From contig NZ_JADGEW010000007.1 in assembly GCF_016744155.1 (NCBI RefSeq), positions 1 to 64,000 on the forward strand: a stretch of 64,000 nucleotides of DNA, in the 5' to 3' direction. Position 1 is the stretch's first letter, and every line of letters starts with the position of its first letter. Source of the DNA: Amphritea sp. Its GTDB lineage: Bacteria > Pseudomonadota > Gammaproteobacteria > Pseudomonadales > Balneatricaceae. The notes under the pieces were generated by a model. That model saw only the letters and a list, made by a program, of their open reading frames with translations. It was not told the origin of the DNA and did not search any database. Shown one piece after another: positions 4,297-52,413 of the stretch. The position numbers and the translations under genes were made by a program.

Positions 4297-4371
4297 TGGC
4301 TGGGGTAGGAGGATTTGAACCTCCGCATGACGAGATCAAAACCCGTTGCCTTACCGCTTGGCTATACCCCA
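4297..4371 (-). tRNA. tRNA-Gln (TTG), third copy
   Basis: A 75-nt tRNA with anticodon TTG and encoded CCA. It differs from the copies at 92 and 385 by one compensated T-stem pair region (ATGCGG/GGATTTG side), so it is a diverged paralogue. It sits upstream of prs, its usual place in pseudomonads, but ispE, which normally lies between it and lolB, is absent. Confidence 0.96.
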
Positions 4372-48749: not shown

Positions 48750-48764
48750 CCTACTCTCGTCTGG

Positions 48765-49835
48765 TCAGGCCCATTTTTTTAGGATAGCGACACCCTGTTT
48801 ATAGCCCAGGCCGCCATTTCCATGTACTGCTCCTATGTGATGGCCGGGGCTGGCAATCATCTGCTGGTGCATTTCGATCAGACTGTTCAAAGCAGGATTA
48901 TTCCAGGGGCCCTTGGCCAGATTCATCCCTCCGGTAATGGTAATCAGGTGCTGCTCCAGAAATGCTGGAACCTGTTCTAACAGATCGACCAGGCCACTCG
49001 CTAACAGGAATGCGATAGGGACAACAGGATAGCAGGTGTAAGTTTCTAATAAGGCTTTGCCCTGTCTGAACTGTTCGGCGAAATCGGTTTCGGCCTGATG
49101 ACAGGCTGCTTGATAGGCCAGCTTGAGGTGATCGTAGCTGACAATGTCTTCAACATGCTGCTTACCATCGCCGGGTAAAAAACCGAGCCCTACACCTGAT
49201 ATCTCAAGACAGGTGTCTGCAGGAATCGTCAGCTGTTGAGCGATAGCAGAGCTGCTGATCAGTATTCTGCCTGCAAAATCGATCAGGGGGTTGGCACAGT
49301 CAACGCCACGAAATAGCGGCGTTATATGGTTATACCAGCGCTCATCAGGGAGTTGTTCTGCGATGAGTTGATCTGAAACGACGTTGCGGTAGCTGCACTT
49401 ATAGTTTTCAAACAGATGATGGGCGAGTTGCTGGAAAAGTTCAGCGTCGGCTCCGTGGCGATGAAGAAACTGCTCTGCCAGCTCGTTATAGGCGGTTGTC
49501 AGAGGGTAGTCATCACCATAGATCGCCATCAGATCCAGTCGCTCCTGGCGCTGGTAACCGGTCCGTAGCATGTCCTTGCCACTGATGACGACCGCGTCAG
49601 CTTCACCCCTCTTGATTAAATGCCGGGCATGGGACAATGCTTCGAGTGGGCCGCAGCCACTGCGGTAATGATTCGGCTGTAATTCGCTGTGCCAGGGGGT
49701 GCTTAGAGGATCGATAGTCAGCTCGGTTATCCGGGCTTTCTGTTGTTGAAGCGTTTGTTCCAGTTCCAGGCAGTGCTTCAGAGAGCCTGTTTCATCGACG
49801 GTTTTTGCTGAGGCGATTATCAGGGCTTCCGGCAT
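48765..49835 (-). CDS. Thiolase-like protein (acetyl-CoA acetyltransferase/SCP-x related)
   Basis: 356 residues, shorter than a normal thiolase. The N-terminal part has SGCGPLEALSHARHLIKRGEADAVVISGKDM, where a cysteine sits before a Gly-Pro as in thiolase-fold proteins; the C-terminus GAVHGNGGLGYKQGVAIL resembles the thiolase end. The standard catalytic Cys/His set is not complete by eye, so activity is uncertain. A decayed second copy of this gene lies at 51150-51535, and the original neighbours appear scrambled. Confidence 0.7.
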   Translation of the reverse strand: MPEALIIASAKTVDETGSLKHCLELEQTLQQQKARITELTIDPLSTPWHSELQPNHYRSGCGPLEALSHARHLIKRGEADAVVISGKDMLRTGYQRQERLDLMAIYGDDYPLTTAYNELAEQFLHRHGADAELFQQLAHHLFENYKCSYRNVVSDQLIAEQLPDERWYNHITPLFRGVDCANPLIDFAGRILISSSAIAQQLTIPADTCLEISGVGLGFLPGDGKQHVEDIVSYDHLKLAYQAACHQAETDFAEQFRQGKALLETYTCYPVVPIAFLLASGLVDLLEQVPAFLEQHLITITGGMNLAKGPWNNPALNSLIEMHQQMIASPGHHIGAVHGNGGLGYKQGVAILKKWA

Positions 49836-49923
49836 AACATCAGTTCCAAACAGAGGGAGGTGTTATTCTATCAGGGTTTTCCTGTATAGGCTAAGTGGCC
49901 TAAGCCGCTTGATCCGGGAGGTA

Positions 49924-50056
49924 TTACTTACTGAGCAGTCGTATGCCGCTTTCTTCAATAGCAATTTTTCGTTCTTTATAGCGTCTTCCAATAGACAGCT
50001 TAAATGCTTTTTTACTACAGCTGAACAGGCGTTTGGTCCTTTCCGGAGAGTTTTTT
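49924..50056 (-). pseudogene. 3' fragment of a cvfB-like gene (duplicate)
   Basis: Codes for about 40 residues KRLFSCSKKAFKLSIG...KIAIEESGIRLLSK and a stop, nearly identical to the C-terminus of the intact gene at 51577-52413. Homology breaks off near 50056 at TCCGGAGAG-T(n). It is the right end of copy A of a segmental duplication. Confidence 0.85.
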
Positions 50057-50104
50057 ATTAAGCGTTGACCTGCAGACAGCGGTCCGGAATTTAAGAGGTA
50101 AGGT

Positions 50105-50243
50105 ATGGTATTTCGACTGGGAATAGATACAGGTGGCACATTTACAGATGCGGTGCTGGTGGATGGCCAACAAAAGATTGTGGCTGCCTTCAAAAGCCTG
50201 ACGAGCCGCTATGACCTGACTATCGGTATCGGCAATGCATTAT
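50105..50243 (+). pseudogene. 5' fragment of a hydantoinase/oxoprolinase-family gene
   Basis: About 46 codons: MVFRLGIDTGGTFTDAVLVD, then KIVAAFKSL and TIGIGNAL, matching the ATP-binding N-terminus of HyuA-type proteins (DTGGTFTDA phosphate loop). A ribosome binding site-like AAGAGGTAAGG precedes the ATG. After about 50243 the frame runs into unrelated sequence and stops, so only a small part of a ~600-residue gene remains. Confidence 0.75.
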
Positions 50244-50249
50244 GCGGGT

Positions 50250-50414
50250 GCCTGCTGAAATGCCGCGCGGGAACTTTACCAGCTGGCCCTGAACGTCGGC
50301 ACCGACATCGCGACAGATCTGTAACGCTTCTTCATCGTCATGAAATTCAATGCCGACCTCTTCGATAATAATTTCGGCACTTTTCACGATCAGGCTCAGG
50401 CCGTCATCAAGCAC
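50250..50414 (-). pseudogene. fragment of a trimethylamine methyltransferase (MttB) family gene
   Basis: On the minus strand about 55-65 codons read VLDDGLSLIVKSAEIIIEEVG, then DDEEALQICRDVGADVQG and VKFPRGI, the N-terminal region of MttB-family (COG5598) corrinoid methyltransferases. In-frame similarity extends a little upstream to about 50438 before a stop. The rest of the ~500-residue gene is missing. It abuts the hydantoinase fragment head to head, an arrangement produced by deletion. Confidence 0.65.
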
Positions 50415-50501
50415 ACCGCTGGTGTTTAACGTTAGCCAGGTCTTTGGTGCGAGTGGTCAGATATCCATCTGCAGCTAATAGTTATGCAGTGTTATACGCC
50501 G

Positions 50502-50876
50502 TTAGTGCTGGGTATAGCCATCTTCGTGCATTGCCTCACGCGCTTTCTCTAGATCCAGTTTCTCAATCGGATCAGACAGATAGTAAGGTAGCTCGACCGA
50601 TTCATCGGTCAGCTGGATCATCTTGCCTTCTATTAGCCTATCGATAACCGATTCAATAGTTTTGACTAATTCGGTAGGTACCGATGCCGGGTATTGGACC
50701 GTCATATAATCAATAAGCTGTTGCAGGGTATGTTGACCATCGGCCAGTGACACGACGATACCCAGCCAGTCTTCAATGTCTGTTGTGTGTGTAGGATTAT
50801 GGATATTAACCAATGCGATCCTGCCGCCCTTACGAGTGAAAATAACGTTACGATAAAAATACTTGTTGGTTTCCAA
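50502..50876 (-). CDS. Small PqqD-like winged-helix protein, function unknown
   Basis: 124 residues from a TTG start without a clear ribosome binding site; there is no ATG or GTG before the upstream in-frame stop, so the N-terminus may be truncated. The middle (SLADGQHTLQQLIDYMTVQYP, then KTIESVIDRLIEGKMIQL) resembles the helical PqqD fold that binds peptide leaders or partner enzymes. It lies among gene fragments and may itself be a remnant. Confidence 0.45.
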   Translation of the reverse strand: METNKYFYRNVIFTRKGGRIALVNIHNPTHTTDIEDWLGIVVSLADGQHTLQQLIDYMTVQYPASVPTELVKTIESVIDRLIEGKMIQLTDESVELPYYLSDPIEKLDLEKAREAMHEDGYTQH

Positions 50877-51149
50877 GGCAGGGCCCCCAGTTGGTAAATT
50901 CAGTGCCAGACTATAGCAAGCACAAGGGGAAGGCTATATACCTCTTAAGTGAAGGCCGATGGAAATGTGTTACTCAAAACCCAGCTCTTTCAAACTGACT
51001 TTTTGATATCTCTTTATTGCAGATAGACGTTTTTTCTTTGCTTTTACTTCGGTACAGCGCTTTAACGGTTACGCCTTTGGTTTTCTGGGGTTGCGTCTTG
51101 ATCGGCGTGTCTGGCCGCCACTTGCGGAGCCTCCGGCGACACTCAGATC

Positions 51150-51535
51150 TCTGTTAAGCTGGGCTTTAGCTCCAGTGCTGCTGATCAGCATTCTGCCTGA
51201 AAAATCGATCAAGGGATTGGCACAGTCAACGCTAAATACGGTTATACCATCGCTCATCAGAGAGTTGTTCTGCGATAAGTTGATCTTAAACGACGTTGCG
51301 GTAGCTGCACTTATAGTCTTCAAACAGATGATGGGCGAGTTGATGGAAAAGCTCAGCATCGGCTCCGTGGCGATGAAGAAACTGCTCTGCCAGCTTGTTA
51401 TAGGCGGTTGTTAGGGGGTAGTCAGCTCGGTTATCCGGGCTTTCTGCTGTTGAAGTGTTTGTTCCAGTTCCAGGCAGTACTTCAGAGAGTTTGCTTCATC
51501 GACGGTTCTTGCTGAGGCGATTATCAGGGCTTTCC
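51150..51535 (-). pseudogene. decayed duplicate of the thiolase-like gene
   Basis: About 85-90% similar by eye to 49245-49880 but with deletions and stops. Two deletions run precisely between short direct repeats present in the intact copy: TAGTCA (49507 and 49715; 208 nt lost) and ATCAGGG (49819 and 49870; 51 nt lost, including the start codon). A third loss of about 14 nt is near 51230. The gene cannot be functional. To its left, 50877-51150 contains no recognisable gene. Confidence 0.88.
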
Positions 51536-51576
51536 TGTGTAGACTAAGCGGCCTAAGCCGCTTGATCCGGTAGGTA

Positions 51577-52413
51577 TTACTTACTGATCAGCCGTATACC
51601 GCTTTCTTCAATAGCAATCTTTCGCTCTTTATAGAGTCTTCCGATAGACAGCTTAAATGCTTTTTTACTACAGCTGAACAGGCGTTTGATCATTTCCGGA
51701 GAGGTTTTATCGTTGGCAGCGATATACCCGTCGTGCTCCTCTAAGAGGTGCATGATACGCTTACCCAGGTCATCAGTTTTGCCATAGCCTAGTTGCTGCA
51801 GGCATAGGTTTATCTTGCCATCGGGGCGAACCAGCTTAATGAAGCCTTTCATCCGCTGGCCATAACGTACCGGTTTAAAGACGTCATCATCGTAGATAAC
51901 TCCCCAGTGCTGCCCGTTAATGATCGCTTTGTAGCCGATGTGGGTGTGGTCTTCGATGATAAGGTCGACCTGCTGGCCTTTCTCATAACTATGAGGGTAG
52001 TTATCTAGAAACTTATTTAGTTTAGTTGTGCCCGCAATCCGATCCGTTTCCTGATCAAGGTAAACATAAACAATCTGCTCCTGATCTTTCTCAACGGTTT
52101 TCTTCTGCTCGCTGAAAGGTACCAAAAGGTCTTTGGGCAGGCCCCAGTCGAAGAATGCACCGATGCGATTAAGATCCAGTACTTTGAGGCAGGCGAAGTC
52201 ACCGACCTGGGCTTTAGGGGTCTCTGTAGTGGCGATCAGAAAATCATCGGAGTCACGGTAGATAAATACATTGAGACTGTCTCCAATGGCGGTATTTTCC
52301 GGGACATAGCGCTGTGGTAGCAGAATTTCTCCCAGCTCTTCGCCGTCGAGATAGATGCCGAATTTAACTTCTTTGACCACTTCCAGAGTGTTGAACCGGC
52401 CGATCATTGTCAT
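51577..52413 (-). CDS. S1-domain RNA-binding protein of the CvfB family
   Basis: 278 residues. Several S1-like beta-barrel units (GDFACLKVLDLNRIGAFFDWGLPKDLLVPF at about 70, GQRMKGFIKLVRPDGKINLCLQ at about 190) and a C-terminal winged helix that ends KKAFKLSIGRLYKERKIAIEESGIRL, as in CvfB/YitL proteins. These bind RNA; Staphylococcus CvfB affects virulence-gene expression. Its last ~45 codons are duplicated at 49924-50056. The ATG at 52413 is preceded by a weak ribosome binding site. Confidence 0.9.
   Translation of the reverse strand: MTMIGRFNTLEVVKEVKFGIYLDGEELGEILLPQRYVPENTAIGDSLNVFIYRDSDDFLIATTETPKAQVGDFACLKVLDLNRIGAFFDWGLPKDLLVPFSEQKKTVEKDQEQIVYVYLDQETDRIAGTTKLNKFLDNYPHSYEKGQQVDLIIEDHTHIGYKAIINGQHWGVIYDDDVFKPVRYGQRMKGFIKLVRPDGKINLCLQQLGYGKTDDLGKRIMHLLEEHDGYIAANDKTSPEMIKRLFSCSKKAFKLSIGRLYKERKIAIEESGIRLISK

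Follow-up and report, generated by a model that had tools for sequence, protein, structure and literature searches.

The locus considered here lies in a window of 64,000 nucleotides at the start of contig NZ_JADGEW010000007.1 of Amphritea sp. (genome G000) and comprises two genes, cvfB and a thiolase-like gene, a truncated second copy of each, and the spacer DNA between the two copies. Along the minus strand the order is cvfB, thiolase relic, spacer, cvfB 3′ stub and intact thiolase-like gene. The intact cvfB (51577..52413, minus strand) matches S1_2 and CvfB_WH, both above cut-off. The intact thiolase-like gene (48765..49835, minus strand) is an open reading frame (ORF) whose name is weak, as the Pfam Thiolase_C_1 and NCBIfam acetyl-CoA acetyltransferase models both scored below cut-off. 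The stub (49924..50055, minus strand) encodes CvfB residues 236-278 plus the stop codon with an 88% match, and is repeated in the last 132 bp of the intact cvfB. The relic (51173..51532, minus strand) holds 5′ parts only: codons ~1-50 and ~109-203 alone are retained, with stops and frame breaks. Each gene is whole exactly once, and in opposite copies, as the initial annotation of this DNA had described; its count of 40 codons for the CvfB-like stub was close to the 43 found here.

Copy A spans 49247-50055 and copy B 51173-51708; the two are direct repeats, in agreement with the claim that this sequence is present twice. They align in four ungapped blocks: 49247-49306/51173-51232 (92% identity), 49324-49512/51236-51424 (94%), 49715-49828/51419-51532 (94%), and 49869-50055/51522-51708 (92%). 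Gapped BLASTN of A against B returned two segments, at 87.6% (E 1e-96) and 78.6% (E 6e-93) identity, far past chance. Copy A, in which the thiolase-like gene is open, also includes a copy of the cvfB-thiolase intergenic region (49836..49923, minus strand), and the thiolase-like gene therefore retains its native upstream DNA. Misassembly was ruled out, since both joins also occur on a single contig (C269) of a second Amphritea genome, G004, which carries the same arrangement at 95.0% identity over 6270 bp. The duplication breakpoints are the same in the two genomes.

Comparison of G000 with G004 separates the constrained parts of the locus from the decaying ones. The ratio of nonsynonymous to synonymous divergence (dN/dS) is 0.02 for cvfB and 0.06 for the thiolase-like gene, which is present as one copy per genome in 17/17 Amphritea genomes searched (G000 and G004 included, broken copies counted). 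The cvfB stub evolves without constraint, with six of seven changes being nonsynonymous. The relic lost 205 bp between TGACTA repeats in an inner deletion common to both genomes, and later deletions of ~50 bp and 14 bp are seen in G000 only.

The spacer contains, from left to right, a hyuA 5′ end, an mttB piece, ~90 bp, a PqqD-like gene, and a bmt 3′ end. The hyuA piece (50089..50248, plus strand; Hydant_A_N) is the start of a hydantoinase/oxoprolinase family gene, with its ATG at 50105 and the ribosome-site region included, and is 83% identical in nucleotides to the intact hyuA of Amphritea balenae (G008). The mttB piece (50260..50409, minus strand; MTTB) is an internal part of a trimethylamine/betaine:corrinoid methyltransferase family gene and is 82% identical to the A. 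balenae gene. The bmt piece (51069..51180, minus strand), recognized by nucleotide match, holds the last ~35 codons of a betaine-homocysteine S-methyltransferase gene, is 82% identical to A. balenae bmt over 51075-51180, and runs into the thiolase relic with an overlap of 7-8 bp at 51173-51180. Overall, the betaine pieces show 81-83% DNA identity to A. balenae genes. Between G000 and G004, neither the hyuA nor the mttB piece shows constraint (five of six and four of six changes nonsynonymous, respectively, in small counts). Second copies of hyuA, mttB or bmt were not found in G000 (mttB queried by fragment only). For the middle region, initially described as ~1.1 kb of foreign or scrambled sequence, the length was right, while four pieces proved nameable and one of them looks like a functional gene.

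That gene (50502..50876, minus strand) is an intact PqqD-like ORF of 124 amino acids, resembling the recognition element (RRE) of ribosomally synthesized and post-translationally modified peptide (RiPP) systems, and is the sole copy found in G000. With seven synonymous and two nonsynonymous differences between G000 and G004 (p = 0.0007 against neutrality), it looks functional and under purifying selection. Relatives occur in six of the 57 genomes searched (G000 and G004 included) and at 17 loci in a wider collection; Pfam PqqD is matched at E <= 0.01 by 12 of 18 aligned members, the window's own member not being among the 12. The protein model is confident (mean predicted local distance difference test score 88.8), and its comparison with the PDB gave no match at E <= 0.001, the best being lasso-peptide RRE domains at E ~1-2. 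Its upstream DNA partly resembles the upstream DNA of its orthologues. The gap between RIO-kinase-like and GGDEF genes, which holds an orthologue in A. balenae and G005, is without a PqqD-like gene in G000 and G015, and the spacer gene seems to have been relocated.

Orthologues of hyuA, mttB and bmt are all present in the same six of 17 Amphritea genomes. In 6/6 congeners with the cluster, intact mttB and hyuA face each other at a distance of 12.1-18.8 kb; the spacer pieces also face each other but directly abut, as a large inner deletion fusing the two would leave them. The A. balenae cluster includes a GbdR-like regulator, a corrinoid activase, a methyl-tetrahydrofolate (THF):corrinoid methyltransferase and FolD, and a BCCT betaine transporter adjoins mttB. 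DNA of G003 and G012 that is alignable to A. balenae across the cluster starts at mttB and stops at hyuA, while the alignment of G005 extends ~700 bp outside mttB. The hyuA and mttB pieces are orthologous to cluster genes, lie in cluster orientation and evolve unconstrained, as in a decayed betaine cluster. The mtgB-type glycine-betaine demethylation clusters described in the accessible part of PMC12478193 likewise have an mttB-family gene, a corrinoid activase, a methyl-THF:corrinoid methyltransferase and folate genes, and a Bmt/MtgE-like partner gene is a further common feature, whereas the spacer holds fragments only. According to the same part of that source, the Bmt-like MtgE acts as a partner of MtgBCD, and its gene frequently lies apart from mtgBCD; here, in contrast, the bmt fragment lies beside those of mttB and hyuA.

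The junction was surveyed in 14 congeners besides G000 and G004 that carry cvfB and the thiolase-like gene on one contig; G013, in which the two genes are split over two contigs, stood outside this count. Twelve of the 14 have a single junction with a gap of 70-111 bp, indicating that one close junction is the norm and supporting the proposed order of events, in which the duplication arose in a lineage with one ancestral junction. The gap is 841 bp with a DUF805 gene in G015 (L048 8524-9358) and 4604 bp with MaoC and a 1176-amino-acid ferredoxin-oxidoreductase-like gene in A. balenae (L056 7417-12014), so insertions have occurred at this junction in at least two lineages, and it may be insertion-prone. 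In one of the 12, G002 (78% complete; G002:C1:4468149-4470107), the cvfB match is interrupted by three stop codons and the thiolase is split in two, perhaps through sequencing error.

The relative ages of the duplication and of the shared block were examined using the four copies from G000 and G004. At all 22 two-against-two sites, without exception, the A copies pair with each other and so do the B copies; distances are 6.9-7.6% for A-B, 2.6% for A-A and 3.7% for B-B. Together these indicate that the duplication predates the divergence of the block between the two lineages. No site supports subsequent gene conversion of one copy by the other. The block is less diverged than its surroundings: fourfold-degenerate sites differ at 55/435 in flanking genes and at 5/160 in the thiolase-like gene (p = 3e-4), and 61/1366 of the block's non-gene sites differ (p = 1.7e-8 against the flanks), with background identity of 93% over 19.9 kb. 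This low-divergence tract starts near 48760-48850 and ends between ~51530 and 51680. Because of its lower divergence, the block probably moved from one lineage to the other, or entered both, by recombination after their separation. Two observations count against this exchange: taken alone, the PqqD-like gene (2/53) is not significantly below the flanks (p = 0.07), and beyond the tract the intergenic region between cvfB and luxS is identical at 75/75 positions, for which constraint could be the explanation.

Taken together, the arrangement stands about an even chance of being the scar of betaine-catabolism DNA that integrated at the cvfB-thiolase junction, duplicated that junction, and then shrank by deletion. 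Starting from an ancestor with the usual single junction, the inserted DNA would have carried glycine-betaine catabolic genes, with bmt at one end and the mttB...hyuA cluster at the other. The ~0.8 kb junction (the last ~43 cvfB codons, the intergenic DNA and the first ~203 thiolase codons) would have been left as flanking direct repeats, possibly in a single step by one crossover with a circular molecule bearing a junction fragment, or alternatively by any event duplicating a stretch that begins in one gene and ends in the other. The betaine genes would then have decayed, chiefly by the deletion fusing the start of hyuA to mttB, while the PqqD-like gene stayed alive; the relic would have shrunk through deletions between short repeats, and homologous recombination would later have carried the whole block from one Amphritea lineage to another.

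As in a scar of this kind, the partial direct repeats flank foreign DNA, and the boundary genes are each whole once, with their cut ends beside that DNA. In the accessible part of PMC3240628, a single crossover of recircularized DNA at E. coli lacZ gave partial gene duplications of 109-950 bp flanking the plasmid. Such Campbell-type scars share with the present locus the direct partial repeats of the target around foreign DNA and boundary genes that are each whole on one side, and the ~0.8 kb repeat falls within their size range. The locus differs in being natural, old and decayed, with no vector or circular form seen, and in having a two-gene junction as its target. A pneumococcal merodiploid model was a poor fit, since its duplications, in the portion of that work available, are ~100-900 kb and repeat-dependent.

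Several observations weigh against integration of a betaine island. Plasmid backbone, integrase or circular intermediate were not seen in a Pfam scan of the spacer ORFs, although ~18 kb may be deleted. The ~90 bp at 50415-50501 and part of 50877-51074 match no named source. Linkage of bmt with hyuA was found in 0/27 family genomes that have both (many fragmented): the two lie on different contigs in 24 and are 220-240 kb apart in three single-contig genomes, so it is only the spacer itself that suggests a joint island. PqqD-like orthologues lie at another locus in A. balenae and G005, between the RIO-kinase-like and GGDEF genes, which means that at least one spacer piece moved or came from elsewhere. 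The spacer also contains a weak inverted 46-base match to the thiolase 3′ part (70%, score 16). As for candidate sources, a plasmid search gave just two distant matches, to the hyuA and mttB pieces, arguing against a plasmid source. No contiguous source island was found in the 27 family genomes or around PqqD-like homologues, where a betaine cluster is present at 0/16 loci other than G004's own.

The initial annotation had proposed a different history, in which both whole genes were duplicated in tandem, each pair lost one member in opposite copies, and the middle was replaced by other DNA. The tandem direct orientation and the single gene pair in relatives are compatible with that account, as is the continued loss of DNA from the relic, and the same end state would result had a single deletion-insertion replaced the middle of a full tandem duplication. 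However, the remaining copies are still 92-94% alike, yet in the spacer the cvfB 5′ part scores no higher than shuffled sequence (score 12, equal to the median of 40 shuffles), and the inverted thiolase 3′ match falls within the range of its own shuffles (40 each; median 12; maximum 17 in G000 and 16 in G004), so that neither is read from the alignments as a clear remnant. Reciprocal loss from two full gene pairs is not supported by these results, nor by the identical breakpoints in both lineages and the cut ends that adjoin other named genes, and it requires one extra step. It is not needed in any case: a direct duplication with its left end in the thiolase-like gene and its right end in cvfB leaves each gene whole once and truncated once, in opposite copies, so that the "reciprocal" pattern arises immediately. 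Tandem duplication with subsequent random loss likewise produces two direct copies with complementary survivors, but here the gene order is unchanged, the missing halves have left no clear trace, and named foreign DNA lies exactly between the copies. Duplication followed by loss is thus the less likely history, though far from negligible, and the stub and relic were probably truncated at birth.

Less likely again is a patchwork formed by template switching or repeated short-patch illegitimate recombination, in which the join of a tandem duplication was filled from at least three unlinked loci. The spacer pieces map to three places in A. balenae (G008: C5, C1 and C16), the absence of bmt-hyuA linkage in the 27 family genomes fits such an origin, and so does the 7-8 bp overlap at one join. 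On the other hand, the supposed source genes were not found elsewhere in G000, pieces drawn at random would be unlikely to derive from betaine genes that are functional partners, and hyuA and mttB retain the facing orientation of the cluster ends, as predicted by an inner deletion. The main point between integration and patchwork is the linkage of the spacer pieces in their source; bmt, mttB and hyuA would have been linked there, because random pieces are seldom functional partners. It is similarly improbable that the locus is a mosaic scar, assembled effectively in one event from pieces of unlinked loci, including a moved live RRE/PqqD-like gene, and afterwards disseminated among Amphritea species through homologous recombination. 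If true, the unit shared between lineages would be a decayed rearrangement and not a functional island. Finally, two unrelated paralogous thiolase regions, for which no support was found, can be ruled out with near certainty, since copies A and B are alike over coding and intergenic DNA at the identities given above and are closer to each other than to four congeners, from which they lie at 23-27% distance.

Elsewhere in the window, a tRNA-Gln/tRNA-Met pair is tandemly duplicated at 94% identity (82-555), and a third tRNA-Gln follows after another 3.8 kb (4297-4371). Downstream of two near-identical tRNA-Lys genes, the segment 59550-59958 contains repeats that look, on visual inspection, like decayed 3′ ends of tRNA-Lys bearing terminator-like tails; no tRNA was called in these repeats by ARAGORN or Rfam.

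The locus illustrates a general trap, namely that complementary truncation of neighboring genes mimics reciprocal loss, yet follows from duplication geometry. As a scar it is unusually readable yet of an ordinary type; less ordinary are the betaine-pathway fossils and a block seemingly shared between species. The spacer preserves remnants of a glycine-betaine pathway that has been lost here, whereas six of the 17 sampled species of the genus retain it.

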